A stretch of DNA of 12,354 nt, from positions 1 through 12,354 of the forward strand of contig QMUF01000037.1 of NCBI GenBank assembly GCA_003663525.1, in the 5' to 3' direction. The position numbers were made by a program, and so were the translations under genes. Positions 1-12,354 of the stretch are shown here, one piece after another; the first letter of the stretch is position 1, and every line of letters starts with the position of its first letter. The DNA is from Thermococci archaeon (GTDB taxonomy: Archaea; Methanobacteriota_B; Thermococci; Thermococcales; Thermococcaceae). The notes beneath the pieces are model-generated. The model made no database searches. It was not told the origin of the DNA and saw nothing but the letters and a program-made list of their open reading frames with translations.

Positions 1-304
1 CCGGCTCTGTTTCCAGGGGAATCCTTCCAATGACCTTTCCAATATCCATCTTTCCTCCAGTTTTGATAACAATAGCATCGGAAAAATCGTCCTGAATGCC
101 AAGGAACTCAAGCTGCTTTTTTACCAAGAAAAGGCTGTCTAAAACGTCGTCAATCATTATTTTTATTCCTCTCTCACGGGCGTATCTCACAAAAATGTAT
201 GTTGCCATAATCGAGCCGTAAGAGGCCTCATCCTCAATAAGGACTAAATCGCCGAAGGGAGTTCTATCTATCATATCAAAAAGCATTTCCTTTGTCATTT
301 CCAT
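1..304 (-). CDS. DUF257 family protein, C-terminal part outside window
   Basis: This is the N-terminal 101 residues of a Thermococcales DUF257 family protein; the frame stays open to the window edge. The family has no established function and I do not assign one. Visible features are a hydrophobic beta-rich start (FGDLVLIED near residues 18-25), then an IDDxxDSLFLVKKQLEFLGI block (51-70), then a KTGGKxxxGKVIGR block (81-94). All three blocks recur in the neighbouring gene, so the two are paralogs. I chose ATG 302-304 because GGTGAT lies 3 nt upstream; an in-frame ATG at 296-298 is also possible with a 9-nt spacer. Either start overlaps the end of the upstream gene, so the two are co-transcribed and probably translationally coupled. 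No signal peptide or membrane segment is visible in this part. Confidence 0.8.
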   Translation of the reverse strand, partial: MEMTKEMLFDMIDRTPFGDLVLIEDEASYGSIMATYIFVRYARERGIKIMIDDVLDSLFLVKKQLEFLGIQDDFSDAIVIKTGGKMDIGKVIGRIPLETEP

Positions 305-966
305 TCTATCACCCCGATAGGGATCTCAATTTTCTTTCCAAGCAAATCCAAACTTGTGGATTTTTTGAAAGTAAAAATGCCGGTTGTAGGGGTTGGAACA
401 GCTTCAATCACAGTGCTTGCGATTCTTTCAAGCTCTGTAAGGGGATTAAAGGGAATAGAAGATGCAATCTTCTTGTTGATTAAATAAAATGCTTTTCTCC
501 TTTTCTCTCCAAGGAAAGACTGAAACGCAATAACAAAGGTGTAGAATTCCGATACCGATGGAACAAATGAAAACAGTCTTTCAAGACCAAGTACAATGTT
601 TATGGATTTTTCAACATTTGAAAAAGCCGCTTTTGATGCTTCTTCATAGTTTCTTATATATATGACCTGTTCACTAACAAACCTTACTCTCGCAACAACG
701 TTTCCGACATTCCTTTTTCCACCAGTTTTAACGACAAGGGCATCTCTAAAGTCTTCGTCAATGCCGACAAATTCAAGGTGCTTCTGGATAACGTGGAGAG
801 AATCGAAGTTATCATCGATTATAACGGGCAATCCCCTTGTTCTTCCATAATATAAAAGTCCAAGAGTTGTAAGCTCGGGGATAAATGAGTGATAATACTC
901 AATAAGAACAGTCTCTCCAAATTTTACTTTGTCCATGAGAGTAAAAACATCTTCGAGAGCTTCCAT
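295..966 (-). CDS. DUF257 family protein, complete copy
   Basis: This is a 223-residue soluble protein of the DUF257 family, function unknown. It shares with the downstream gene an FGxxVLIE strand near the start, a (I/M)IDDxxDSLxxxxKxLEFxGIxxDF block (about residues 48-70) and a KTGGKxxxGxVxxR block (about 80-93), so the pair arose by duplication. The C-terminal half contains predicted alternating strands and helices but no Walker A motif, cysteine pair or other catalytic signature that I can recognise. The start is ATG 964-966. An in-frame GTG at 973-975 would add three residues, but that GTG lies in the GTGAT ribosome-binding-like sequence 4 nt upstream of the ATG, so it is better read as the binding site. 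The gene ends inside the start of the next copy. It is separated from the hydrogenase operon by a T-run and its own TATA-like box. Confidence 0.85.
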   Translation of the reverse strand: MEALEDVFTLMDKVKFGETVLIEYYHSFIPELTTLGLLYYGRTRGLPVIIDDNFDSLHVIQKHLEFVGIDEDFRDALVVKTGGKRNVGNVVARVRFVSEQVIYIRNYEEASKAAFSNVEKSINIVLGLERLFSFVPSVSEFYTFVIAFQSFLGEKRRKAFYLINKKIASSIPFNPLTELERIASTVIEAVPTPTTGIFTFKKSTSLDLLGKKIEIPIGVIEWK

Positions 967-995
967 CCTTATCACTGTTTGTTTATGTCAACCTA

Positions 996-1020: not shown

Positions 1021-2271
1021 TCAAAGCCTAACAACATGCACAGAACAGGAAATGCATGGATCAAATGCCCTTACAGTTTCCTCCAACTTCTGGAGGAATG
1101 TCACCTCATCTGAATCTCCATACCTCTTCTTGGCCTCTTCATAAAGGCTGAGCTCCATAATGGCGTGATTGAAGGCTGTCGGCGTTATTATATTGGAATA
1201 TGCTATGTTACCCCTTTCGTCTATTCTGTAGTGGTGCACTAGCACTCCTCTCGGAGCTTCGGCGTATCCTATCCCCTCTCCCTCTTGAGGTTCAATTGGA
1301 ACATTTTCTCCTTCAATGCCCTTATCTAATAGTGTTTTTGCAACCTCTTTTGCTTTTTCGAGAGCATATACAAGTTCTATAGCTTGGGCCAGATTGTTAA
1401 AGCTTATATAACCGCTTGCAAGTTTCTCTTTGTGTTCTTCATAAAAGTGCTTTGCCATTGGAGTGAGCATGTCGTGCTTTAGCATTACTCTGGAGAGGGC
1501 CCCAACCATAAATATGTTTCCTTTGTATCGGCTTTGTTTTGCAAAGCTGTAGGGAAGTGTTTTCTCTTCGACATGCTCAAGATAATCAAACTTCTCCCCC
1601 TCCTCTGCAATCAGCTTATCTCCATACAAGTATCCGTTAGTGGCAATGTAGTGCTGTACCGTAGCTCCCAATGGTTCTTGTTCTGCAAATATATTCACGG
1701 CTCTTCTTGCAGGCCTTAGAAGTGCTTCGCTCTGTCTTTCTATCCGTTCTAGTTCTTCAACTGTTGGGTATCGTCCAAATCCACCAGGTTTGATATTTAT
1801 GCCGTGTATCTCCCTACCACCGAGGATTTCACGAATATAATTACCAAATGCTTTGATAGTGATCCCTTCTTTGACGACTTCTCCATGCTTGCTGGCCATT
1901 CTTATAGCATCTGCATAGCCAAAGAGGTCTGGAGCAACGAGGAGATAAAGGTGCAGTGCATGACTCTCGATTAGCTCTCCAAGAAGACCAAGCTCTCTTA
2001 GTAGCATTATTTCTTCTGGAACATTAACGCCTAAGGCCCGCTCTATTCCAAGAACCGAGGCAACACTATGAGAGAGGTAGCATATAGCGCATATTCTGGC
2101 CTCTAAGTCAGGCACATCCCAGTAGTGTCTGCCAAGAGTTAGAAGCTCAAAGAATCTGGGCCCTTCGAATATCTTAAGCTTGACATCTTTTACTTCTCCA
2201 TTTTCAACGATGATTTCTGCTCCACCATTTCCTTCTACCCTGGTAAAGGGTTCAATTTCAATGTTTACCAT
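1021..2271 (-). CDS. shyA: Cytoplasmic [NiFe]-hydrogenase (sulfhydrogenase II-type) alpha subunit, catalytic
   Basis: This is the large catalytic subunit of a group 3b cytoplasmic [NiFe]-hydrogenase, where H2 is split or formed at the Ni-Fe site. It has 416 residues, close to the usual length for the archaeal sulfhydrogenases. The N-terminal nickel motif RICAIC places Cys61 and Cys64, and the C-terminal motif DPCISC places Cys406 and Cys409; these are the four Ni ligands. The conserved RGVLVHH segment (341-347) is present. The protein ends four residues after His412 (tail VVRL), the short extension that a maturation endopeptidase removes after Ni insertion; no such protease gene lies in this window. 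The gene overlaps the delta gene by 7 nt and has GGGTGAG 6 nt before its ATG. It is the last gene of the operon. I use the sulfhydrogenase II symbol because the delta subunit is SHII-like; the SHI paralog is the alternative. Confidence 0.93.
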   Translation of the reverse strand: MVNIEIEPFTRVEGNGGAEIIVENGEVKDVKLKIFEGPRFFELLTLGRHYWDVPDLEARICAICYLSHSVASVLGIERALGVNVPEEIMLLRELGLLGELIESHALHLYLLVAPDLFGYADAIRMASKHGEVVKEGITIKAFGNYIREILGGREIHGINIKPGGFGRYPTVEELERIERQSEALLRPARRAVNIFAEQEPLGATVQHYIATNGYLYGDKLIAEEGEKFDYLEHVEEKTLPYSFAKQSRYKGNIFMVGALSRVMLKHDMLTPMAKHFYEEHKEKLASGYISFNNLAQAIELVYALEKAKEVAKTLLDKGIEGENVPIEPQEGEGIGYAEAPRGVLVHHYRIDERGNIAYSNIITPTAFNHAIMELSLYEEAKKRYGDSDEVTFLQKLEETVRAFDPCISCSVHVVRL

Positions 2272-3005
2272 CTTAGCTCACCCCTTGCAAAAGTTTTGAA
2301 CTTTCTTCGGATGTACTCCTCGTCATATCCTAACTCCTTGAGAATCTCAAATTCACTTGCTGGGTTGGCTTCTTTTGGCAGAGGTCCTCTGCATCCGATA
2401 CACCCAACTCCTGACTTTATGCAGGCAGCATTGCATCCTCCAAGAGTTATTGGGCCTAAACAGGGTATTTCTTTTTTAACCAGAACACACTCATATTCGT
2501 TGAGTTTACACTCTACACACACTGGGTAATCCTTTGTTGGTGGTTCAATCCCTTTGGCTAGACTTATGAGCACTTGGTAAATCTCATCTTTATCGTAAGG
2601 ACAGCCGGGTAAAGCGTAGTCTACTGCAACGTGTTGTACAATTGGAGTAGAATCTAAAGCTCTCATGGGATTTGCTTTCGTGCCGTAGACTTTTTCGAGC
2701 TTCTCTCTGATTTTTCCCTCAACACTTGCTTGAACATTTCCATGAGTAGCACATGTTCCAAGGGCTATAAGATAGTTAGAGTGATTTCGGGCATAGTGAA
2801 GGAGGTTCAAGTCTCTCTGAGTTGAGACACTTCCCGTCACTACGGCAACATCAAGTGCATCGTGCTCTCTAAAGCTTGAAGCCATGTGGAATTCTTTTAT
2901 CTCATAGAATTCAAGTAAATCAAAGAGCTTCTCGTAGAGGAAAAGGATATTTAAAGCACAGCCACCACAGCCAGTGAGCTCAAAAACACCCAGTTTGAGC
3001 ATCAT
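2265..3005 (-). CDS. shyD: Sulfhydrogenase II-type delta subunit, electron-transfer small subunit
   Basis: This is the small subunit of the [NiFe]-hydrogenase. It passes electrons between the Ni-Fe site of the alpha subunit and the flavin/[Fe-S] subunits. It has 246 residues. The proximal [4Fe-4S] cluster is indicated by TGCGGC (Cys13, Cys16), GTCA (Cys85) and GCPYD (Cys135). Eight further cysteines (163, 166, 173, 182, 191, 195, 202, 205) supply the medial and distal cubanes. There is no twin-arginine signal peptide, which fits a cytoplasmic enzyme. The opening LGVFELTGCGGCALN matches my memory of P. furiosus SHII delta rather than SHI delta. I chose ATG 3003-3005, which makes an ATGA overlap with the gamma stop; the next ATG (3000-3002) is equally possible. 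The longer reading to 3062 would add 19 cysteine-containing residues inside the gamma gene and is rejected. Confidence 0.92.
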   Translation of the reverse strand: MMLKLGVFELTGCGGCALNILFLYEKLFDLLEFYEIKEFHMASSFREHDALDVAVVTGSVSTQRDLNLLHYARNHSNYLIALGTCATHGNVQASVEGKIREKLEKVYGTKANPMRALDSTPIVQHVAVDYALPGCPYDKDEIYQVLISLAKGIEPPTKDYPVCVECKLNEYECVLVKKEIPCLGPITLGGCNAACIKSGVGCIGCRGPLPKEANPASEFEILKELGYDEEYIRRKFKTFARGELRW

Positions 3006-3868
3006 ATCAGCCCCCTTGTTGAAAGCGCATCCCAATATGTAAATACAGGACCATCTTTGCACACGTACTTAATTGAGGTGCTTGTTCCAACGATGCAGTG
3101 CCCACATTTTCCAACTCCACACCGCATCCTTCTTTCAAGAGTCATGTAAATTCTCCCTGGAGATAACTTTCTGTCTAAGAGCTCCTTGATGACAAACTTA
3201 TACATCACTGGCGGGCCGCAGATCAAAGCATATGTGTTTTCTACATCAAAGCTTTCTCCTCTAAAGAGATCCGTGACAACTCCCTTACAAACTCTTGGTG
3301 AGTAGCCCTTCTCTAGATATATACATGAAGGACTTTCCACCTCATAGGCAAGTTTCACGTGACAGTTCATGTCCTCTCCATGTTTTAGCAGGTGAATTAC
3401 TTCGTCTCTAAAGAGAATGTCTTCGTAGGCCTTGGTACCATAGAACAGATATATTTTTTCATATTTTCCACTATCAAGAGCATACCATAACACTGATCTC
3501 AAGGGAGCCATGCCCAAACCGCCTGCAACTAGGATTAATGTGCTCCCTTCCATTTTTTCCATTGGAAATCCATTGCCATAAGGGCCCCTAATCCCAACAA
3601 TATCTCCTTCTTTTAGAGTGTGCATGTGTTTTGTCATCCTGCCTACTCTTCTAACACATAGTTGGAAGTATCCCTCTCTAGTTGGAGTTGAGCACAGACT
3701 TATTGGAAATTCCCCGAATCCCCTTATATCGACTATTACAAACTGACCGGGCTTGTATTTGAATCCCCTGTTAATTCCAGGGTCAACAAATCGGAGAGTG
3801 AAGAGCTTTTCTCTTGAAGTGAGTTCCTTTACCTCTAAAATCCTTGCCTCATGTGTTTGGAAGGTCAT
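3002..3868 (-). CDS. shyC: Sulfhydrogenase II-type gamma subunit, FAD/NAD(P)H reductase
   Basis: This diaphorase subunit exchanges electrons between NAD(P)(H) and the hydrogenase core. It has 288 residues in the ferredoxin-NADP reductase-like order. An N-terminal FAD-binding barrel contains the FPISLCSTP flavin segment (54-62). It is followed by IRGPYGNGF (93-101) and the nucleotide-binding VAGGLGMAPLRS (114-125). CGPP (217-220) is the usual conserved cysteine loop. At the C-terminus a [2Fe-2S] motif is formed by Cys250, Cys255, Cys258 and Cys270 (MRCGVGKCGHC then YVC), as in dihydroorotate dehydrogenase electron-transfer subunits. The start ATG 3866-3868 overlaps the beta stop as ATGA and has a purine-rich GGGAGGG upstream. 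Whether NADH or NADPH is preferred cannot be decided from the sequence; P. furiosus SHII is reported to accept both. Confidence 0.92.
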   Translation of the reverse strand: MTFQTHEARILEVKELTSREKLFTLRFVDPGINRGFKYKPGQFVIVDIRGFGEFPISLCSTPTREGYFQLCVRRVGRMTKHMHTLKEGDIVGIRGPYGNGFPMEKMEGSTLILVAGGLGMAPLRSVLWYALDSGKYEKIYLFYGTKAYEDILFRDEVIHLLKHGEDMNCHVKLAYEVESPSCIYLEKGYSPRVCKGVVTDLFRGESFDVENTYALICGPPVMYKFVIKELLDRKLSPGRIYMTLERRMRCGVGKCGHCIVGTSTSIKYVCKDGPVFTYWDALSTRGLI

Positions 3869-4869
3869 TGCAATCCCTCCCTTACCTCATCAAGAACCTT
3901 AACATGCTCTATTTTTGCTGGACAGAATTCATCGCACCTTCCACATCCAACACAGTTGAATCCGGACTCAGGATCAAAGTAGTTTTTGCAGTAGTAGCGG
4001 TGCCTAAATCTATCTAAGCGCGTGGGTCTAAAGTTATGTCCTCCAGCCACTAGTCCATGGGTTTCCATGAAACAGGAATCATAACGTCTAACTCTTACTG
4101 CTTCATAGGCGTTTATCCAGAGATCACACACTTCGTAACACCTGCATGTTGGGCAAACCATATTACAATTGCCACACCCAAGACAGATTCTCTCATATTT
4201 TTTCCACACTGGACTGTCAAATGCCAAATCGAGAATATCTGCTAGCCCTTCCTTATTTAAAGATCGTTTAAAGGAGTTAGTTCTCTTTTCTTCAAATTCT
4301 CTAAAGTGATGGAAGTCTTCTTCGGTCACGTTCTCAAAAAGTTCTTCACTTCCCCATGCAATCTCATGTCCCTTTACACTCCCAACTCTGACAAGCCAGC
4401 CATCGGGAAGCTCATGTAAAAACAAGTCGAACCCATGCATGGCAAAGTCCGTGCCCAAGCTCTTACAAAAACAGTATTCATCTGGCATACAGCTAATACC
4501 AATTATTATTGAGTTCTCTCGTCTTTTTTTGTAGTACGGATCCACTGGGTCACTCAAATAAACTTTGTCCAAAATTTCTAAGCCGTGTATATCGCAGGAA
4601 TGGACTCCAAAGAGAACTATAGGCTCTGTGCCATTGGCCTCTTCCCAGTGGCCTTCTTTAAGCTTAAGCATCTCGTCTTTTGGCCTTACAAAGAACTTTT
4701 TTGGTGGGAGCATAGTTCTTGTATAGTCCAAAGTAATTTCGGAAAGAGTTTCGACATTCTGGAAGGAGTATATATCCCCCTTCTTTACTGGTGCATACAA
4801 CTTGCCCCATCTTTTTAGGGAGTTGAAGAACTCCTCAAAATTTTCTTGGGGTAGCTTTACATATCGCAA
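3865..4869 (-). CDS. shyB: Sulfhydrogenase II-type beta subunit, 4Fe-4S protein, TTG start
   Basis: This iron-sulfur subunit (334 residues) of the cytoplasmic sulfhydrogenase is related to anaerobic sulfite reductase subunit A. It is usually held responsible, with gamma, for the sulfur/polysulfide-reducing side activity. Two [4Fe-4S] motifs are clear: Cys229-x2-Cys232-x2-Cys235-x3-Cys239, and Cys306-x2-Cys309-x2-Cys312-x3-Cys316. Extra cysteines (242, 244, 248 and 127, 133, 135) may add ligands. It is the first gene of the operon. I place the start at TTG 4867-4869, giving MRYVKLP, which matches the family N-terminus as I remember it and leaves GGTGAT (4874-4879) intact 4 nt upstream. The GTG at 4876-4878 would add three residues but lies within that ribosome binding site. 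All four hydrogenase genes overlap by 4-7 nt, implying coupled translation. Confidence 0.9.
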   Translation of the reverse strand: MRYVKLPQENFEEFFNSLKRWGKLYAPVKKGDIYSFQNVETLSEITLDYTRTMLPPKKFFVRPKDEMLKLKEGHWEEANGTEPIVLFGVHSCDIHGLEILDKVYLSDPVDPYYKKRRENSIIIGISCMPDEYCFCKSLGTDFAMHGFDLFLHELPDGWLVRVGSVKGHEIAWGSEELFENVTEEDFHHFREFEEKRTNSFKRSLNKEGLADILDLAFDSPVWKKYERICLGCGNCNMVCPTCRCYEVCDLWINAYEAVRVRRYDSCFMETHGLVAGGHNFRPTRLDRFRHRYYCKNYFDPESGFNCVGCGRCDEFCPAKIEHVKVLDEVREGLQ

Positions 4870-4873
4870 GACT

Positions 4874-4879
4874 ATCACC
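4874..4879 (-). promoter_or_regulatory. Ribosome binding site deciding the shyB start
   Basis: The minus strand reads GGTGAT, the Thermococcales consensus, with a 4-nt spacer to the TTG start at 4869. The GTG inside it is in frame and easily mistaken for the start codon. Confidence 0.65.
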
Positions 4880-4901
4880 TAGAGTTATTGGTCAATTTTA
4901 T

Positions 4902-4910
4902 GTTTGTAAA
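4902..4910. promoter_or_regulatory. Imperfect SurR-like half site
   Basis: The plus strand reads GTTTGTAAA, one mismatch from GTT-n3-AAC. It shares eight of nine bases with the inverted perfect site 45 bp away (GTTTGTAAC on the minus strand at 4955-4963). It lies between the hydrogenase TATA-like box and the shyB start, close to the expected transcription start. No third GTT at the extended spacing is present, so this may be chance. Confidence 0.25.
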
Positions 4911-4924
4911 GACTCGATTTAAGG

Positions 4925-4934
4925 ATTTTTTAAA
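4925..4934 (-). promoter_or_regulatory. TATA-like box of the hydrogenase operon
   Basis: The minus strand reads TTTAAAAAAT. A start about 25 nt downstream (near 4904) would leave a leader of about 35 nt before the TTG start of shyB. The SurR-type site lies 13 bp upstream of it, the arrangement expected for activation. A second AT-rich stretch nearer the gene (CATAAAAT) is a weaker alternative. Confidence 0.5.
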
Positions 4935-4946
4935 CGGATGGTGACT

Positions 4947-4963
4947 AACTAAACGTTACAAAC
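4947..4963 (-). promoter_or_regulatory. SurR-type operator, extended consensus, shared by divergent promoters
   Basis: On the minus strand the sequence is GTTTGTAACGTTTAGTT, an exact match to GTT-n3-AAC-n5-GTT. That is the extended site described for SurR, the sulfur-responsive redox-switch regulator of Thermococcales. SurR with reduced cysteines is known to activate hydrogenase operons and to release DNA when S0 oxidises it. The site sits between the two divergent TATA boxes, 13 bp upstream of one and 17 bp upstream of the other, so it could activate both operons. Binding itself is inferred. Confidence 0.75.
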
Positions 4964-4980
4964 ATATACTTTAGTGTGCA

Positions 4981-4988
4981 TTTATAAA
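4981..4988 (+). promoter_or_regulatory. TATA box of the bfuCBA-like operon
   Basis: The sequence is TTTATAAA, a near-ideal archaeal TATA box. A start about 25 nt downstream (near 5010) would give a leader of about 20 nt containing GGTGAT (5021-5026) before the ATG at 5031. The SurR-type site lies just upstream. Confidence 0.6.
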
Positions 4989-5030
4989 CGTCAATGTGAA
5001 AGATATTATGAGAAATGTAAGGTGATGGAC

Positions 5031-5495
5031 ATGAACTCTCAATTTGAGTATATCTACCATTACGAACCGAATCCCAGTTCTCTAATTCCATTGTTGCAAA
5101 AAACCCAAGAGACATTTGGGTATCTCCCAAAAGAGGCCCTTGAGAAGATTTCCAGATATTTAAAGGTGCCACTAAGCAGGGTTTATGGAGTCGCAACATT
5201 TTATGCTCAGTTTCGTTTTGAACCACTTGGAAAGTATGTGATAAAGATATGCCATGGAACGGCTTGCCATGTTAATGGTGCAGTGAACATTTCCCAAGCT
5301 ATACGAGAAGAAGTAGGGATTGAAGAAGGTCAAACAACCTCTGATGGTCTAATAACATTAGAGAGAGTCGCCTGCTTGGGATGCTGTAGCTTAGCTCCGG
5401 TCATAATGATAAACGAGAAGGTTTACGGAAAATTAACGCCTGATAAGGTTAGAAAAATCATTAGAAATCTCAAAGAGGGGAAGCTCAATGTCTGA
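5031..5495 (+). CDS. NuoE/HydC-like [2Fe-2S] subunit (BfuC) of a putative bifurcating oxidoreductase
   Basis: This is a 154-residue thioredoxin-like [2Fe-2S] protein of the 24-kDa complex I / HydC family. After a helical N-terminal region (LLQKTQETFGYLPKEALEKI, 21-40) comes the conserved VYGVATFYAQF segment (51-61). The cluster ligands are Cys74, Cys79, Cys115 and Cys119 (CHGTAC and CLGCC), all four present. In the HydABC/Bfu family this subunit pairs with the NuoF-like subunit to form the flavin core that handles NAD(H) and ferredoxin. The start is ATG 5031 because GGTGAT (5021-5026) lies 4 nt upstream. A longer frame from 4974 would begin at the TATA box and cannot be translated from the predicted transcript. 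It overlaps the next gene by 8 nt and is the first gene of the operon. Confidence 0.9.
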   Translation: MNSQFEYIYHYEPNPSSLIPLLQKTQETFGYLPKEALEKISRYLKVPLSRVYGVATFYAQFRFEPLGKYVIKICHGTACHVNGAVNISQAIREEVGIEEGQTTSDGLITLERVACLGCCSLAPVIMINEKVYGKLTPDKVRKIIRNLKEGKLNV

Positions 5496-7296
5496 AATTA
5501 AGGCTATCGCTGTGGGAATGAACTCCTGTGGAATTGCAGCCGGAGCTAGAGAAACGTATGAAGCTGTGAAAGAAGAACTGGAGAAGAGAAACCTCGACAT
5601 CAAGCTCAAAATAGTGGGTTGCGTAGGGATGTGTTACAGAGAACCTCTTCTTGATATTATTACCGAGAACGAAATCATTACCTATGGCCACGTTACACCC
5701 GATAGAGTGCCACGAATAATAGAAGAGCACGTTATAAACGGAAGACCCATAGAAGAGTGGATTGTCAAAAAGGACTGGTGGGAAAACGGAGAAAGAAAAA
5801 CTTGGGATGTTGATGGATATTTTGCAAAGCAGAAAAAAATAGTGTTAGAAAATTCAGGATATATAGATCCGGAGAACATAGAAGAATACATAGCAGCTGG
5901 AGGTTATGAGGCTCTCAAAAAGGCTTTCAAAATGAAACCTGAGGAGATAATAGATTTCATAACAAAATCCGGGCTCAGGGGAAGAGGAGGGGCTGGATTT
6001 CCAACGGGCCTTAAATGGAAGTTCACCAGAGGCGCTCCTGGAGATGAAAAATATATAGTGTGCAATGCTGATGAGGGGGACCCGGGTGCTTTTATGGACA
6101 GAAACGTGTTGGAAGGAGATCCACATAGGGTTATAGAGGGGATGATTATCGGCGCTTATGCTATTGGAGCTACAAAAGGGTTCATCTATGTGAGAGCGGA
6201 GTATCCACTTGCCATAAAGAGACTCAGAATAGCACTAAAGCAGGCAAGAGAAAAAGGATTCTTGGGAGAGAACATATTAGGAAGCGGTTTTTCCTTCGAT
6301 ATTGTAATAAAAGAAGGCGCAGGTGCTTTTGTTTGTGGAGAGGAAACTGCACTAATAGCATCTATTGAAGGAAAGAGGGGAATGCCAAGACCAAGACCAC
6401 CTTATCCTGCCCAAAAGGGGCTTTGGGGAAAACCAACCAATATAAACAACGTTGAAACTTGGGCAAATGTGCCATGGATAATAAGGCATGGCTGGGAGGC
6501 ATATGCTGCTCTTGGGACAGAAAAGAGCAAAGGCACGAAAGTTTTTGCTCTCTCTGGAAAGATCAAGCATGGTGGAAACGTAGAGGTTCCGATGGGTATC
6601 ACGTTGAGGGAGATACTCTACGAGATTGGAGGAGGAACTAAAACGGGTAAGAAGATAAAGGCAGTTCAGCTTGGAGGCCCGTCAGGAGGATGTATTCCTG
6701 ATTATCTCTTTGATACTCCCGTTGATTACGAGAGTGTCACTGCAACAGGTGCAATAATGGGAAGTGGCGGAATGGTGGTTATGGACGAAGACACGTGCAT
6801 GGTTGATGTTGCAAAATTCTTCTTAGACTTTACTGTGAAGGAGTCTTGTGGAAAGTGCACCTTCTGTCGTTTAGGAACTAAGAGGATGTGGGAACTCCTT
6901 GACAAAATTACAAAAGGCGAGGGAACTTTAGAAGATATTGAGAAACTTGAAAAGCTTGCACCACTAGTTAAAACTGGCTCTCTATGTGGACTAGGGCAAA
7001 CGGCGCCAAATCCAGTTCTCACAACTTTAAAATACTTCAAAGATGAGTATCTAGCACACATAGAAGGAAGATGTCCGGCTAAAGTCTGTAAACCTCTCAT
7101 AAAATACGTTATAATTACCGACAAGTGCACAGGTTGTACTGCATGTGCAATAATGTGTCCAGTGAAGGCCATCAGCGGAGAAAGAGGAAAGCCACACTTA
7201 ATCAATCAAGAGGCATGCATAAAGTGTGGAACCTGCTATGAGGTGTGTCGCTTTAATGCAATAGAAATAACCGATGCCAAGAGGGAGGGTGAGTGA
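5488..7296 (+). CDS. NuoF/HydB-like FMN and Fe-S subunit (BfuB) of a putative bifurcating oxidoreductase
   Basis: This 602-residue flavoprotein belongs to the NuoF/HydB family. Domains in order: a thioredoxin-like [2Fe-2S] domain (1-90); the FMN/NADH domain with GRGGAGFPTGLKW (165-177), NADEGDPGAFMDR (193-205) and GAGAFVCGEETALI (277-290); the N3-type [4Fe-4S] site (Cys454, Cys457, Cys460, Cys500); and two C-terminal [4Fe-4S] motifs (Cys547/550/553/557 and Cys577/580/583/587). The C-terminal ferredoxin domain separates it from respiratory NuoF and points to HydB/BfuB. His524, Cys529 and Cys534 could be the zinc site described in HydB structures. The N-terminal domain shows only Cys14, Cys44 and Cys48; the position of the usual first ligand is Val9. 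GAGGGG lies 7 nt upstream of the ATG. In the proposed complex this subunit oxidises or reduces NAD(H) and exchanges electrons with ferredoxin. Confidence 0.92.
   Translation: MSEIKAIAVGMNSCGIAAGARETYEAVKEELEKRNLDIKLKIVGCVGMCYREPLLDIITENEIITYGHVTPDRVPRIIEEHVINGRPIEEWIVKKDWWENGERKTWDVDGYFAKQKKIVLENSGYIDPENIEEYIAAGGYEALKKAFKMKPEEIIDFITKSGLRGRGGAGFPTGLKWKFTRGAPGDEKYIVCNADEGDPGAFMDRNVLEGDPHRVIEGMIIGAYAIGATKGFIYVRAEYPLAIKRLRIALKQAREKGFLGENILGSGFSFDIVIKEGAGAFVCGEETALIASIEGKRGMPRPRPPYPAQKGLWGKPTNINNVETWANVPWIIRHGWEAYAALGTEKSKGTKVFALSGKIKHGGNVEVPMGITLREILYEIGGGTKTGKKIKAVQLGGPSGGCIPDYLFDTPVDYESVTATGAIMGSGGMVVMDEDTCMVDVAKFFLDFTVKESCGKCTFCRLGTKRMWELLDKITKGEGTLEDIEKLEKLAPLVKTGSLCGLGQTAPNPVLTTLKYFKDEYLAHIEGRCPAKVCKPLIKYVIITDKCTGCTACAIMCPVKAISGERGKPHLINQEACIKCGTCYEVCRFNAIEITDAKREGE
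7287..7292 (+). promoter_or_regulatory. Ribosome binding site deciding the BfuA-like start
   Basis: GGGTGA lies 5 nt before ATG 7298. The in-frame ATG at 7274 has no such sequence and falls inside the preceding gene, so the later ATG is preferred. Confidence 0.6.
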
Positions 7297-7297
7297 G

Positions 7298-10165
7298 ATG
7301 GTCAAGATTACTGTTAACGGAAAGGAATTTGAAGCTCCCAAAGATAAACCCCTTATCGAGTTTCTCAGGGAAGTAACTCATGTGCCTGGCTTTTGCTACA
7401 ATGATGCCTTTGACCCGTATGGTTCCTGTCGTCTATGCTTGGTAAAGACTCCAAGAGGGATTACAACCTCATGCACCCTCAAACCTATGGAAGGGCTTTC
7501 AATTGAGACGTTGAGTGACGAAATAATAGAAATGAGGAAAACCGCCTTGGAGTTAATTCTTTCTGACCACTATGGGGATTGTATCGGGCCATGTCAAAAT
7601 GGTTGTCCAGCTCATAGTGATGTACAAGGGTACCTCGCGTTAATAGCTATGGGCAAATACCACGAAGCTGTAAAACTAATGAAAGAAAAATACATCCTCC
7701 CAGCAGTTCTTGGAAGAGTATGTCCAGCATTCTGTGAAGAAGAATGTAGAAGGAACCTTGTAGATGAGCCTCTAGCTATAAGACAATTGAAAAGATTTGC
7801 TGCTGATTATGATCTCGAACACGGCCCATGGATGCCAGAGATCCCCCCATCAACCGGCAAAAGGATCGCGGTTGTCGGAGGTGGGCCTGCAGGACTAGCA
7901 TGTGCCTATTATCTGAGAACCATGGGGCATGATGTGACAATTTTTGAAGCAATGCCTCATCTTGGAGGAATGATGCGGTATGGCATACCGCCCTACAGAC
8001 TCCCGAAAGACGTGCTTGATAAAGACATAGCGACGGTAATAAATACGGGCATAGAGGTAAAAACCAACACTGCCCTGGGAAAAGATATTGCCTTGGAAGA
8101 TCTTAGAGAACAATATGACGCAGTATTCCTTGGAGTGGGTGCATGGAAGAGTAGGAAGATGAGGATAGAAGGTGAAGACCTTGATGGTGTTATTCACGGC
8201 ATAGAATTTCTCAGAAAGGTCAATATGGGGGAGAAGGTTGAACTTGGAAAGAGAGTCATTGTAGTGGGTGGTGGAAACACAGCCATGGATGTTGCAAGGA
8301 CTGCACTGAGACTTGGAGCAGATGTTACAGTGGTTTATAGAAGGTCAAAGAGTGAAATGCCTGCAAATCCAAGGGAAGTAGAAGAGGCGGAGGAAGAAGG
8401 GATCAGGTTCATGTTCCTTACTAATCCCATAAAAATCATCGGTAAGGAGAAAGTGGAAGAAGTTGAACTCATAAAAATGAAACTAGGCGAACCAGACGCA
8501 AGTGGTAGAAGACGCCCGATACCAATAGAAGGCTCAGAGTTCAGAGTAAAAGTAGACAATGTTATCCTTGCTATAGGTCAATACTGTGATGAGGAGTTCT
8601 TGAGAACCATTGGCATCGAAGCAAAACGTGGGAGAGTTCTCGTAGACGAAGTAACACTCCAAACGAATAAGGAAGGAGTTTTTGCTGGTGGAGATTTAGT
8701 ATTAGGCCCATCCACAGTTATAGAAAGTATTGCAACTGGAAGAAGGGCCGCAATTATGATAGATCTCTATTTGAAGGGCAAGCTTGAAAAAGCAAAAGAA
8801 GTGCTTCTAGATCCTTCAAAGCACATCGAAGAGGTTTTATGTGATGAAGACCTTTATAGAGTTCTTTTTGATCTAAGACCATACAATCACTGGAAGAAAG
8901 TGACGGAGAAAGATTATGAACATGTGGAGAGAAAACCGAGAGCCAAAGTAAAGCTCCTCGATCCAGAAATTAGAAAGAACAATTTCAAGGAAGTTGAACC
9001 AACAATGGATGAGGAAACAGTTCTTACAGAAGCTCAGAGGTGCATGAGTTGCGGGTGTATGGAGGTCTTTAGATGTAAGCTCAGAGAATATGCAACGCTC
9101 TATGATGCAAAACAGGATGCATTTATAGGAGAACAGAACAAATTTGAAATCGATGAGACTCATCCCAATATTGTGTTAGACAACAACAAGTGTGTTCTTT
9201 GTGGTCAGTGTGTCAACTTCACCCATGAGGTTGCCAAAGAGGGTATCGTAGACTACCTGTTCAGAGGCTTTAAGACATATATTGGACCCCAGTTAGGAGA
9301 GAAGTTGAAGGATCAAAAGGGAGTGTTCATTGGAGAACTTATTGACATTTGTCCTGTTGGAGCAATAACTGAAAAGCTTCCATTCGTCAAACCCGGTCCT
9401 TGGAAGACCCAGCCGGTGAAAACAGTATGCAATGGATGTTCATTTGCATGCGAGATGAACATAGAGGTCTACAACGACATCTTAGTTAGGGCCTCAAGCA
9501 GAAAAGACTCGTGGAATGGATACATTTGCGATTACTGTCGCTTTGAAAGACCATGGGCTCAAGACCTTACCCAGCCAATTTTGAACGGGAATGCTGTAAG
9601 CTGGGAAGACGCTGAAAAGTTCCTAAAAGAAAAAGAATATGCTCTAATACTCACACCCTCTCTTACAAATGAAGAGATAGCGTTCTTCAAAGAGCTTGCG
9701 GAAAGAAGGGGAATTCCAATAGGCTCAACCGTTGATGGTGGAACTTCAACCGCAACTCTTGAAGACATTAGAAATGCAAAGCGCGTCCTCCTAAAAGCTA
9801 ACGTAGAGAAATATCCTCTTCTAAAGGTACTACTGAAGGGCAAGGAGATAGTGGAAGAAGGCTACGAGGTGGCAATAATTGAAGGTCCAGCTGAGCCTAT
9901 GGACGTGCCAACTTTAATCCTCCACGATGGAGTGAATGCTATGGGATTAACAAAGGCAGGAGTTACAGGCATACCAGAGGCAGGAGCTTATGTCATCATA
10001 GGAAACCCACCCGCAATAAGTAAGCTAAAAGGTGAATACCTAATACTGACAAGTGGACTCTGGGCGGAAAAAGAAGGAACCGTCACAAACGCCTTTGGAA
10101 TAGAGTTGAAAGTGAGAAAGGCAAGAAAAGCACAGTACGATGTTAAAAGCCTGTTTAACTTTTAA
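7298..10165 (+). CDS. NuoG/HydA-like Fe-S protein with an inserted GltD/NfnB-like FAD-NADP(H) module (BfuA)
   Basis: This 955-residue multidomain oxidoreductase is the largest subunit of the operon. Domains in order: an N1b-type [2Fe-2S] ferredoxin domain (Cys33, 44, 47, 59); a GltD-type N-terminal Fe-S domain (Cys95, 99, 103, 142, 146, 150); an FAD Rossmann fold with VVGGGPAGL (192-200); an NADP-type Rossmann fold with VVGGGNTAMD (322-331) and YRRS (347-350), whose arginines suggest NADP(H); and the flavin-closing AGGD (463-466). A cysteine-rich linker follows (Cys582, 585, 587, 593). Then come a NuoG N4-type [4Fe-4S] site (Cys632, 635, 638 plus Cys685 of CPVGAI), an N7-like site (Cys711, 714, 718 with Cys744 or 747), and a short molybdopterin-oxidoreductase-like remnant (about 760-955). 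It begins one base after the BfuB stop. With its neighbours it would couple NADP(H) to the NAD/ferredoxin core, like NfnABC. The reaction is inferred; automated pipelines may call it a glutamate synthase small subunit. Confidence 0.88.
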   Translation: MVKITVNGKEFEAPKDKPLIEFLREVTHVPGFCYNDAFDPYGSCRLCLVKTPRGITTSCTLKPMEGLSIETLSDEIIEMRKTALELILSDHYGDCIGPCQNGCPAHSDVQGYLALIAMGKYHEAVKLMKEKYILPAVLGRVCPAFCEEECRRNLVDEPLAIRQLKRFAADYDLEHGPWMPEIPPSTGKRIAVVGGGPAGLACAYYLRTMGHDVTIFEAMPHLGGMMRYGIPPYRLPKDVLDKDIATVINTGIEVKTNTALGKDIALEDLREQYDAVFLGVGAWKSRKMRIEGEDLDGVIHGIEFLRKVNMGEKVELGKRVIVVGGGNTAMDVARTALRLGADVTVVYRRSKSEMPANPREVEEAEEEGIRFMFLTNPIKIIGKEKVEEVELIKMKLGEPDASGRRRPIPIEGSEFRVKVDNVILAIGQYCDEEFLRTIGIEAKRGRVLVDEVTLQTNKEGVFAGGDLVLGPSTVIESIATGRRAAIMIDLYLKGKLEKAKEVLLDPSKHIEEVLCDEDLYRVLFDLRPYNHWKKVTEKDYEHVERKPRAKVKLLDPEIRKNNFKEVEPTMDEETVLTEAQRCMSCGCMEVFRCKLREYATLYDAKQDAFIGEQNKFEIDETHPNIVLDNNKCVLCGQCVNFTHEVAKEGIVDYLFRGFKTYIGPQLGEKLKDQKGVFIGELIDICPVGAITEKLPFVKPGPWKTQPVKTVCNGCSFACEMNIEVYNDILVRASSRKDSWNGYICDYCRFERPWAQDLTQPILNGNAVSWEDAEKFLKEKEYALILTPSLTNEEIAFFKELAERRGIPIGSTVDGGTSTATLEDIRNAKRVLLKANVEKYPLLKVLLKGKEIVEEGYEVAIIEGPAEPMDVPTLILHDGVNAMGLTKAGVTGIPEAGAYVIIGNPPAISKLKGEYLILTSGLWAEKEGTVTNAFGIELKVRKARKAQYDVKSLFNF

Positions 10166-10244: not shown

Positions 10245-10778
10245 ATGGATTTCTTTGAAGTAGTTAAGAAAAGGAGAAGCATTAGAAAGTATCAAGAGAA
10301 AAAAGTGCCAAGGGAATACATAGAGAAAATTCTTGAAGCAGCTTTTTATTCCCCAAGCTCAATGAACAGGAGACCATGGCATTTTGTGGTTGTTGACGAT
10401 AGAGGGATCATTCAAAAGCTGGCAAATACGAGAAGAGCGTTAAGATTTCTTGAAACAGCGCCTCTAGCGATAGTAGTGTGCGGAGATGAAAATATGAGCC
10501 TCTCTTGGGTTTTCGATGCTTCAATAGCAGCGGAGCACATTCAATTAGCCGCTACAGCCTTAGGCCTAGGAGCATGCTGGGGACACGTATTGGATAGGCA
10601 ACACAGTGAAGAAAAGAGTGCCGAGGACTATGTAAGGGAACTTTTAGGAATCCCAGAACATATTAGGATTTTATGTGTAATTGGAATAGGTTATCCGGCA
10701 GAAGACAAAGAGGAACATAAGGAAGAGGAAATAATGTGGAACAGAGTTCACTGGAACAGGTTTGGAAGCAACCTTTAG
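10245..10778 (+). CDS. Nitroreductase-family FMN protein
   Basis: This is a 177-residue member of the nitroreductase/FMN-dependent oxidoreductase fold, which acts as a homodimer with FMN at the interface and uses NAD(P)H. Visible motifs are the phosphate-contacting RRSIRKY (10-16), SPSSMNRRPW (36-45) with the expected Ser/Asn positions, the dimer helix DASIAAEHIQLAATALGLGACW (starting at 91), and the terminal glycine motif IGIGYP (146-151). The C-terminal tail is highly charged (KEEHKEEE). The substrate cannot be inferred; members of this family reduce nitro compounds, quinones or flavins. GGTGAT (10236-10241) precedes the ATG by 3 nt. The gene lies 79 nt after the BfuA-like gene on the same strand, so read-through is possible. 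It converges on the next gene with 4 nt between the stop codons. Confidence 0.88.
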   Translation: MDFFEVVKKRRSIRKYQEKKVPREYIEKILEAAFYSPSSMNRRPWHFVVVDDRGIIQKLANTRRALRFLETAPLAIVVCGDENMSLSWVFDASIAAEHIQLAATALGLGACWGHVLDRQHSEEKSAEDYVRELLGIPEHIRILCVIGIGYPAEDKEEHKEEEIMWNRVHWNRFGSNL

Positions 10779-10782
10779 ATCA

Positions 10783-12354
10783 TCACGCCCTTTTCCTCTT
10801 AAGGTACCATATTATCAACGAAATAGCGAGGAGGCCTGCCAAAAACCCTATTAGTTTTTTCGGAGGAGTTTTCTCATAGTTTTTAAAGCTCTTACTTTGG
10901 AGATCCATCAAAAGAAGCAACATCACGTAATCTTCGGAGCATCCTCTTATTCCGTAATCTCCTGCCAGCTCACTCTCACACCTAAGTGAATTATACTCTT
11001 TTAGGAATTTTTCTATATCTTGAGTGTTGCCTAATAAATAATACCAAAGAAGAGCCATCACAGAGGGCCTTATAGAGTCACTCCACCAGTCATAGTGTGG
11101 ATGAATTTTGAAATTATAACATCCCTTACCACACTTCTGTATTTCAGCACAATAAACTCTCATATAACTGTCATTTGAGAGTTTTTTGAGAAGGAATACA
11201 TCAACCTCTGGTTCCCAAGTGATTTCTTCTGGAATAGTGAAATTAAGATGTCCATTTACTGTGAAATTCTTATCAAATGCCTTAAACTCCCAGCTCTTGC
11301 TTAAGAGGTAGTAGAATGTCCCATTATCCTCAATTTTAGTTAAATTGGTTCCGCTAAATGTCACATCAATATAGTACTTTTCCTTTGAGTTCCAGAACAA
11401 GTCCACTGAAACGTAGAGAGCATAATAATCGGTAAAAGAGAGTTTCGTTTTATTTAGGACCGAGGCCACAAAATCAATGATATCCGGGTTGAGTTCCAAC
11501 CCTTCTTCTTTAATTAGCACTAGAGGAATAATCAAGCTTTCAAAGGGTTCTCTGTGAGAGGTGTGAACACTTGGAAAACCAAGCTGGTAAAATGGAAAGT
11601 TGTAACTCCATTTAGGAGTTTCATTGTCAATGAAAAATGCGAGATATTCCTTGTTCATCAAATTTTTAGGCTCAAGATTTGAGTTCAACCACTGCAGAGG
11701 CTTTGAAACATCGTACCCCAATCTGTGCAAAAGTGCAATAGCATATGCCGTGGAAACTAAGCTCGGCGTTTCTTTAAAGCTCCATATCGCTTCCGCTTTT
11801 TCACAGCTTGAGTGTCCAACCTTAGAAGATGAGACAGTATAGAAATAACTCCAATATGTGCCATTTTTCATGGTTTTCAAGAGATATTGTACGCCCTTCT
11901 TTATTACGGGGGAATCTTCAGGTTCGCCGGCATCTAGGAGTGCATATAAAACCAGAGCTGTCGAAGCGACTCTAGAACAGGTTGTTATGTAGCTGTACTC
12001 TGGGCATTTCTTAAATGAGAAGCCATAAAGACAAGAGGGAAAGCTCTCGAACTCTTTAGGTCTTTCCGCATAGTAATAAGCATCGCAAAAAGGGACACCA
12101 GAAACATCAAAGGTTATAATGGGTGGAAACGAACCATCATCACGCTGAAGGGATTTTAGCCATTCTGAGTATTCCTCGGTAATTTTCTCTTCCTTAAGAC
12201 CTGACCTTGCAACAGCTATTATTTCAAGTGAGCGGACGTATATTTTGTAGCCCAACTCAGCATTTTCAATCGATTTATCTTGAATAATTTCCTCAATGAC
12301 ATCTTTTTTAGCCTCATCAATGGAAGTTGCTCTAACTTGGGGAGTTAAAATGAG
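10783..12354 (-). CDS. Exported, membrane-anchored alpha/alpha-toroid protein (prenyltransferase/squalene-cyclase-like repeats), N-terminus outside window
   Basis: The frame is open to the right edge, giving 523 visible residues; a TTG at 12253-12255 is only an internal codon. The first visible residues (LILTPQVRA followed by TSID) look like the end of a signal peptide, so only a short piece is probably missing. The body shows helical-repeat segments typical of the terpenoid-cyclase/prenyltransferase alpha/alpha toroid: SLQRDDGSFP (68-77), a STALVLYALL helix followed by a GVQYLL helix, and STAYAIALLHRLGY. I see no squalene-cyclase DxDD motif, so a cyclase activity is not supported. A single transmembrane helix (501-518) is followed by KRKRA, so the bulk is outside the cell. 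Eight N-x-S/T sequons and ten cysteines in the body fit a glycosylated, possibly disulfide-stabilised surface protein. Its function is unknown. Its stop lies 4 nt from that of the convergent nitroreductase gene. Confidence 0.75.
   Translation of the reverse strand, partial: LILTPQVRATSIDEAKKDVIEEIIQDKSIENAELGYKIYVRSLEIIAVARSGLKEEKITEEYSEWLKSLQRDDGSFPPIITFDVSGVPFCDAYYYAERPKEFESFPSCLYGFSFKKCPEYSYITTCSRVASTALVLYALLDAGEPEDSPVIKKGVQYLLKTMKNGTYWSYFYTVSSSKVGHSSCEKAEAIWSFKETPSLVSTAYAIALLHRLGYDVSKPLQWLNSNLEPKNLMNKEYLAFFIDNETPKWSYNFPFYQLGFPSVHTSHREPFESLIIPLVLIKEEGLELNPDIIDFVASVLNKTKLSFTDYYALYVSVDLFWNSKEKYYIDVTFSGTNLTKIEDNGTFYYLLSKSWEFKAFDKNFTVNGHLNFTIPEEITWEPEVDVFLLKKLSNDSYMRVYCAEIQKCGKGCYNFKIHPHYDWWSDSIRPSVMALLWYYLLGNTQDIEKFLKEYNSLRCESELAGDYGIRGCSEDYVMLLLLMDLQSKSFKNYEKTPPKKLIGFLAGLLAISLIIWYLKRKRA

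Follow-up and report, generated by a model that had tools for sequence, protein, structure and literature searches.

An Nfn-type Bfu triad beside hydrogenase II in a Thermococcus-like archaeon, with indications of an exchange slot

The locus and its genes

We describe here a three-gene unit of a Thermococci archaeon (family Thermococcaceae; assembly GCA_003663525.1, contig QMUF01000037.1) and the hydrogenase operon that lies divergent from it. The window denotes the whole stretch of DNA that was analyzed, 12,354 nucleotides, and is identical with contig C37; the genome comprises 1,623,465 bases on 220 contigs and is 82.83% complete. Three open and complete frames on the forward strand, namely bfuC, bfuB, and bfuA, form one tight unit (8-base overlap, 1-base gap) and fill exactly the interval 5031 to 10165 that an earlier note on this DNA had given for a triad (Table 1). 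The ATG start of bfuC at 5031 is directly preceded by AGGTGATG, and 152 bp away the hydrogenase II operon shyBCDA runs in the opposite direction.

Pfam finds Complex1_51K, SLBB, NADH_4Fe-4S, and a C-terminal Fer4 domain in BfuB, and in BfuA Fer2_4 (residues 1-72) and Fer4_Nqo3 (623-691) on either side of Fer4_20 (98-175) and Pyr_redox_2 (189-480). Together with the matches to Protein Data Bank (PDB) entry 9n5u, these domains agree with the HydC-HydB-HydA pattern by which the earlier note had recognized an archaeal Bfu/NfnABC-like triad. Its further statement, that the third subunit carries a full GltD/NfnB-like unit and no H-cluster domain, is borne out by Pfam and by the alignment with 5jca_L: no [FeFe] catalytic (H-cluster) domain is found in BfuA by Pfam, and the NCBIfam [FeFe] matches fall in the scaffold. 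Pfam and NCBIfam also reveal no formate dehydrogenase or other catalytic domain, and a third substrate site of any of these kinds, the H-cluster included, was rejected.

Table 1. Features of the window (positions on the forward strand)
Feature	Position	Strand	Basis
bfuC (NuoE/HydC/StnA-like), thioredoxin-like [2Fe-2S] subunit, 154 residues	5031..5495	+	Pfam PF01257 (2Fe-2S_thioredx) 1.2e-54; 97.4% to G079
bfuB (NuoF/HydB/StnB-like), flavin mononucleotide (FMN) and nicotinamide adenine dinucleotide (NAD(H)) subunit, N-terminal thioredoxin-like part, C-terminal 2x[4Fe-4S], 602 residues	5488..7296	+	Pfam, PDB alignment, Cys conservation
bfuA (StnC/NsoC/NfnA-like), NuoG/HydA-like scaffold with GltD unit, 955 residues	7298..10165	+	Pfam, PDB alignments
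bfuA, N-terminal [2Fe-2S] domain and first part of His-Cys3 motif (H91-x3-C95)	7298..7582	+	aligns with 16/16 H-cluster BfuA up to at least C95
bfuA, inserted GltD/NfnB-like unit for flavin adenine dinucleotide (FAD) and NAD phosphate (NADP(H)), two [4Fe-4S] sites	7583..9040 (approximate limits)	+	Fer4_20, Pyr_redox_2; 5jca_L over residues 97-493
bfuA, second part of His-Cys3 motif (C582xxC585xC587x5C593-K-L) and N4-type cluster domain	9041..9370	+	Pfam, flank alignment
bfuA, N7-type CxxCxxxC...C site (C711, C714, C718, C744)	9428..9538	+	invariant columns, 8 aligned sequences
bfuA, shortened molybdopterin-oxidoreductase-like C-terminal part	9548..10162	+	S. ovata StnC alignment; shorter archaeal C-terminus in passages of PMC10482914
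Divergent control region common to triad and hydrogenase II operon	4879..5030	.	SurR-type GTTNNNAAC at 4955-4963; long form 4947-4963 read towards shy
Hydrogenase/sulfhydrogenase II operon shyBCDA	1021..4878	-	NCBIfam equivalogs ShyA, ShyD, ShyC, ShyB, all above cut-off
Nitroreductase-family gene, far side of slot	10245..10778	+	NCBIfam scan; NfnI has same neighbor in relatives

A known enzyme of the Bfu family

Judged from its sequence, the triad is already known: it is an ortholog of Thermococcus sibiricus Nfn-Bfu/NfnABC and a homolog of Sporomusa StnABC, and chance is excluded as the source of its matches. The best solved relatives are 9n5u_A (NfnA), with which BfuA aligns from end to end (2099.8 bits over 955 residues), and 9n5u_B (NfnB) for BfuB (1376.6 bits over 602 residues). 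In the Foldseek output, 9n5u bears the title "Structure of the Thermococcus sibiricus NfnABC complex" and 9n5v is its NAD(H)-bound form, both released on 2025-05-07; the third subunit is 94% identical to T. sibiricus NfnA over its full length. The AlphaFold model behind that fold search (mean predicted local distance difference test score 61) served only to obtain PDB titles and dates, with its template modeling scores left unused. A Caldicellulosiruptor Nfn-ABC structure has been deposited as well (9bov), and the literature search found no paper accompanying 9n5u and 9n5v. By its third subunit the nearest genome is G083 (98% over residues 88-955 of a cut gene), followed by G079 (94% over the full length), to which the identities are 94.5% for BfuA, 97.5% for BfuB, and 97.4% for BfuC. 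Thermococcales archaeon 44_46 (BfuB 89%) is the nearest named genome in a scan that may omit records very near the window.

The Bfu family was defined by Schut et al. 2022 (PMC9304861), who assigned Nfn-Bfu to its Type 1. They produced the T. sibiricus enzyme from its operon in Pyrococcus furiosus and purified it; reduction of ferredoxin by NADPH was tightly coupled and took place only when NAD+ was present. An archaeal form, whose purification the earlier note had called unknown, has thus been both purified and deposited as a structure (9n5u, 9n5v), and the coupled activity of this ortholog supports the proposal that the complex would join NAD(H), NADP(H), and ferredoxin. The window's triad shows the features of a Type 1 Nfn-Bfu: a BfuB with NuoF core, thioredoxin-like N-terminus, and C-terminal ferredoxin domain (Pfam, PDB alignments, Cys conservation), an adjoining BfuC of the NuoE/HydC kind (PF01257), a BfuA with a GltD/NfnB-like NADP(H) domain, and a BfuB that groups with Nfn-type BfuB in our own 81-row tree (not the published clade 53). 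It also has the marks of the Stn family, namely K165 (= K170) and the His/Cys-rich motifs HxxxCxxxCxxxCP and CxxCxCx5C flanking GltD. The third subunit has no H-cluster domain as HydABC would require, and of NfnAB only the GltD unit is present, with no NfnA-like partner in the gene unit.

The copy shares its three subunits and the loss of the second dicluster site with T. sibiricus Nfn-Bfu/NfnABC (Tsib1517-1519), from which only ordinary divergence is seen. With Sporomusa ovata StnABC (8oh5, 8oh9), known from a cryo-electron microscopy structure with electron path and mutants (Kumar et al. 2023, PMC10482914), it has in common the domain order, the K170/R239 equivalents, and both flanks of the split motif. 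S. ovata StnC, however, is longer, at 1172 residues, and possesses cluster C2 and an extended FdhF-like part, whereas BfuA of the window has 955 residues, no C2 ligands, and V109 in place of C114. Bacterial bifurcating [FeFe]-hydrogenase HydABC shares the BfuBC core and has homologous N-terminal and N4-type parts in its third subunit, but its His-Cys3 motif is contiguous, while that of BfuA is interrupted by GltD. The large subunit of NfnAB/NfnI (5jca) aligns with the GltD unit, and NfnI has the same overall reaction and genomic slot; it has no Bfu core and bifurcates at its own FAD, whereas the Stn-type FAD does not bifurcate (PMC10482914).

By description, Thermococcus litoralis NsoABC resembles Stn and has a third subunit of 955 residues (PMC7483475), and its name (Toth et al. 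2008, as cited there) suggests another function, that of an NADPH-dependent sulfur/oxygen oxidoreductase. Under this alternative, to which the sulfur-regulator-type motif in the control region would also be suited, sulfur or O2 is the main acceptor of electrons from NADPH, and bifurcation is a side effect. It is very improbable for the window: Kremp et al. 2020 (PMC7483475) found Nso highly similar to Stn and suggest that it may itself be a Stn-type enzyme, citing Toth et al. 2008 for the idea of a GltD integrated into a NuoG-like protein; the purified T. sibiricus enzyme requires NAD+ to reduce ferredoxin (PMC9304861); and a complete BfuBC core would be superfluous. We give equally little credence to a plain NADH:NADP(+) transhydrogenase that makes no use of ferredoxin, built on a non-bifurcating NuoF relative. 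S. ovata Stn does have side activities without full coupling (PMC10482914), but the T. sibiricus ortholog couples, and non-bifurcating homologs do not have the B2-B5 clusters (PMC9304861), whereas BfuB of the window keeps the N- and C-terminal cysteines.

The GltD unit within the His-Cys3 motif

The earlier note had placed the GltD unit between the [2Fe-2S] and N4-type domains, in the place of the His-Cys3 cluster. The location stands; the replacement does not. On the present alignments, the unit is inserted within the motif with both flanks kept, and simple replacement of His-Cys3 by GltD was rejected, the motif being retained on both sides. Of 18 supplied loci, 16 have a BfuA frame that satisfies both the H-cluster and the His-Cys3 pattern (L066 and L070 failed; L065 was not included), and each of these frames contains H-x3-C-x2-C-x5-C followed by E-[LF]. 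In 16/16 the N-terminal flank of the window aligns through H91-x3-C95, and in 16/16 the flank after GltD aligns through the last Cys of the motif into the N4-type domain. The insertion point of GltD is therefore downstream of the motif's His and ahead of its final Cys. In the BLAST alignments, C582 and C585 are mostly matched to the first two cysteines of the motif, leaving a two-residue gap before C593, whereas C587-x5-C593 keeps the native spacing, and the choice of ligands in the second half is thus ambiguous between the two pairings.

Both flanking motifs occur in 31 of the 35 BfuA frames that have the N-terminal part and GltD; among the exceptions, L022 is cut by a contig end, L034 is split between frames, L078 has no first pattern, and the L064 frame has neither. 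Kremp et al. had already remarked on the two motifs (PMC7483475); what this alignment adds is that, as far as sequence can tell, they derive from His-Cys3.

Cofactor ligands and the BfuB tree

Of the 21 cysteines of BfuB, 20 are conserved in at least 79 of 81 relatives, and C14 in 48. In BfuA, twelve residues are invariant in eight aligned sequences (H91, C95, C99, C103, C142, C146, C150, K165, C582, C585, C587, and C593), and these are candidate ligands for three clusters, any cluster-by-cluster allotment being conjectural. K165 and R234 stand at the positions of K170 and R239 in S. ovata StnC, where K170 lies beside cluster C7, and two homologs have Val or Ile at the C114 position (both PMC10482914). 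The Stn family is described as a StnABC tetramer with clusters C1 and C2 (PMC10482914). BfuA keeps the CxxCxxC...CP of the C1 type but none of the four cysteines of the second dicluster site (C2/A4) in the S. ovata alignment; passages of the two structural and functional studies likewise describe the C2 cysteines as lacking in T. litoralis and T. sibiricus (PMC10482914) and A4 as lacking in T. sibiricus (PMC9304861).

The BfuB tree was built from 81 rows by a quick method, with well-supported branches starred. The window's BfuB joins first L002 (support 98) and then Heimdallarchaeota L003 (100). As a check set beforehand, the phylogeny agreed with a Bfu assignment: the window falls inside a starred set of 36 of the 81 rows, of which 34 are GltD-type and two (L021, L071) are untyped as their contigs end. 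GltD-type Bfu sets also occur in one Heimdallarchaeota (L003) and one Thermoplasmatota (L007) genome. In L047 (Delongbacteria), a GltD-type BfuA accompanies a BfuB outside the main GltD-type clade, a hint of exchange of BfuA types between Bfu cores.

Proposed reaction and electron path

The reaction of such enzymes is usually written as 2 NADPH + NAD+ + oxidized ferredoxin <-> 2 NADP+ + NADH + reduced ferredoxin. In the window's enzyme, the hydride of NADPH would be taken up by the non-bifurcating FAD of the GltD unit, from which electrons would pass through the two [4Fe-4S] clusters of that unit to a third site at the split His-Cys3 motif, and thence by way of the N-terminal [2Fe-2S] and the N4-type cluster to BfuB. 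Here, FMN and nearby clusters would divide the electrons between NAD+ and ferredoxin, with BfuC gating the ferredoxin branch. The path described for S. ovata StnC runs from FAD over C7, C6, C5, C4 ([2Fe-2S]), and C3 to B1 and FMN in StnB (PMC10482914).

Taken as a whole, the triad is very probably an Nfn-type Bfu enzyme (Nfn-Bfu, NfnABC, StnABC) of a Thermococcus-like archaeon near T. sibiricus, coupling NADPH, NAD+, and ferredoxin and forming a divergent pair with hydrogenase II. Several points weigh against this interpretation. Reaction and path are carried over to this copy from relatives, the former from T. sibiricus and S. ovata and the latter from S. ovata. With the C2/A4 cysteines lost, the internal route in archaea may differ from that in S. 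ovata. GltD-type BfuB does not form one clade, with four label changes on the tree and GltD-type L047 outside. Finally, the triads of G024, G027, and G018 occur without a full shy operon, and so the hydrogenase is not indispensable to the triad.

The slot beside hydrogenase II

BfuA orthologs were surveyed in 94 Thermococcaceae genomes, which yielded 41 full-length and 3 partial ones, and 39 of the 41 neighborhoods were examined. In 36 of these 39, counting G078, whose fetched stretch ends inside shyA, the triad and the hydrogenase II operon point away from each other. All four shy genes stand beside bfuC in 30 of 33 fetched loci, as they do in the window, G079, G082 (as L002, with shyB in two pieces), G048, and G083. 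In G018 (L149, L186), all that is left of the operon next to an intact triad is a shyA remnant of about 324 bp with one TAG, as would follow from a recent loss of hydrogenase II.

The same position is taken by NfnI in other genomes. We delimited this class by a gap in the scores to NF004862 (members reach at least 374 bits) and checked one member per class against 5jca_S (573.7 vs 218.5 bits). Its small subunit occurs in 24 genomes and is divergent from shy in 23 of them, G057 being the exception. Across the 94 genomes, Bfu is found in 45 (41 full, 3 partial, and the contig-cut G064, counted for its bfuB and bfuC beside shy), NfnI in 24, neither in 25, and both in none. Passages of PMC9304861 state that Thermococcaceae hold either Nfn-Bfu or NfnAB and never both; exclusivity here concerns the NfnI class only, as a second NfnAB-like class coexists with Bfu, for example in G079. 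A decayed GltD fragment on the host's contig C55 (L083, 166-837), which starts mid-gene, is interrupted by a TAG, and changes frame close to its end, matches the large subunit of that second class in G079 with 92% identity over 232 residues.

Hydrogenase II also occurs together with one or the other of the two transhydrogenases. ShyA is above cut-off in 55 of the 75 genomes of at least 90% completeness, and all 55 have Bfu or NfnI, compared with 7 of the 20 that have no hydrogenase II. The Fisher value of 6e-10 for this association is not to be read as a probability, the genomes being related. Among all 94 genomes, five incomplete ones have ShyA with neither enzyme found.

The control region between the two operons is likewise shared. 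SurR-type GTTNNNAAC is present in 34/34 Bfu-shy control regions, where 4.2 would be expected, and in 22/23 NfnI-shy control regions (for which there was no shuffle control); in both sets the regions are related by descent and not independent. For Thermococcus piezophilus, SurR motifs before NfnI and hydrogenase II, with consecutive locus numbers, have been published (PMC8595942), and the NfnI side of the slot is therefore not new.

Probable exchange of NfnI and Nfn-Bfu

On a hydrogenase tree of ShyA, ShyB, and ShyC with 58 rows (contig-cut G067 and G091, whose slots are unseen, were left out), the occupant label changes nine times, with at least five changes forced by starred branches and a shuffled mean of 18. 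Without the long row G055 (57 rows), there are eight changes, again at least five of them forced. The window's own genus provides examples on the 60-row hydrogenase tree: G084 (Bfu) forms a support-100 trio with G076 and G080 (both NfnI), and G077 (Bfu) a support-96 trio with G075 and G081 (both NfnI).

At the other border of the slot, the gene after BfuA belongs to the nitroreductase family in the window, L002, G079, and G078, as does the gene after NfnI in G081, G075, G076, and five genomes of another genus. Since only 4 of the 29 other Bfu loci that were fetched with 1.5 kb flanks have such a gene nearby (with G079 included once more), two shared flanks of the slot are shown for the window's genus alone. 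In two NfnI-Bfu pairs of this genus, the halves of the control region differ in identity (0.87-0.89 vs 0.67-0.70); we claim no recombination breakpoint, because one Bfu-Bfu pair also falls, from 0.80 to 0.63.

These observations bear on a wider proposal, which we consider evenly balanced: that the place divergent from hydrogenase II is an exchange slot, in which FAD-based NfnI and FMN/Fe-S-based Nfn-Bfu have been swapped several times behind a shared SurR-type control region, and that hydrogenase II and the occupant form one functional unit, H2 <-> NADPH <-> NADH + reduced ferredoxin. The slot would serve to hold the NADPH that hydrogenase II produces or consumes in exchange with NADH and ferredoxin. 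A serious competitor, toward which we lean somewhat less than halfway, takes the neighborhood as shared regulation and inherited gene order only, with no functional unit and with the exchange as ordinary recombination. SurR motifs stand on many Thermococcales electron-flow operons, according to passages of the literature, and gene order is inherited among related genomes; moreover, the three triads without a full shy operon persist, and 7 of 20 near-complete genomes keep Bfu or NfnI in the absence of hydrogenase II. On the other hand, the occupant switches repeatedly while its hydrogenase neighbor stays, and every near-complete genome with hydrogenase II has one of the two enzymes, although the genomes are not independent and in five less complete ones with hydrogenase II neither was found.

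The literature searched, including passages of PMC9304861, PMC12162507, PMC8595942, PMC10025317, PMC6401487, and PMC2432063, gave no description of Nfn-Bfu in this slot or of the exchange, which is weak evidence of novelty, figures, supplements, and most subscription papers being outside its scope.

Other genes in the window

The reverse strand from 10783 to 12354, open at the window end, encodes a protein with weak squalene-cyclase-like matches (8.3e-05, well below cut-off) and a hydrophobic C-terminal stretch, a relative of which (83%) lies at the same place in G078. At the other end (2-975, reverse strand) are two related small proteins, one of which was scanned and gave no NCBIfam match; genes similar to this pair recur downstream of shyA in many relatives.

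Implications

The triad itself is ordinary, and the recurrent in-place exchange of two unrelated bifurcating enzymes is the part worth following. The GltD insertion with both flanks kept suggests how electrons leave the inserted unit. If hydrogenase II and the slot occupant do form one functional unit, they would be a two-enzyme archaeal counterpart of bacterial bifurcating HydABC, which a 2022 report had not yet found in archaea. If the swapping is real, close relatives would amount to a natural experiment on the interchangeability of FAD-based and FMN/Fe-S-based bifurcation and on what decides which of them is retained.

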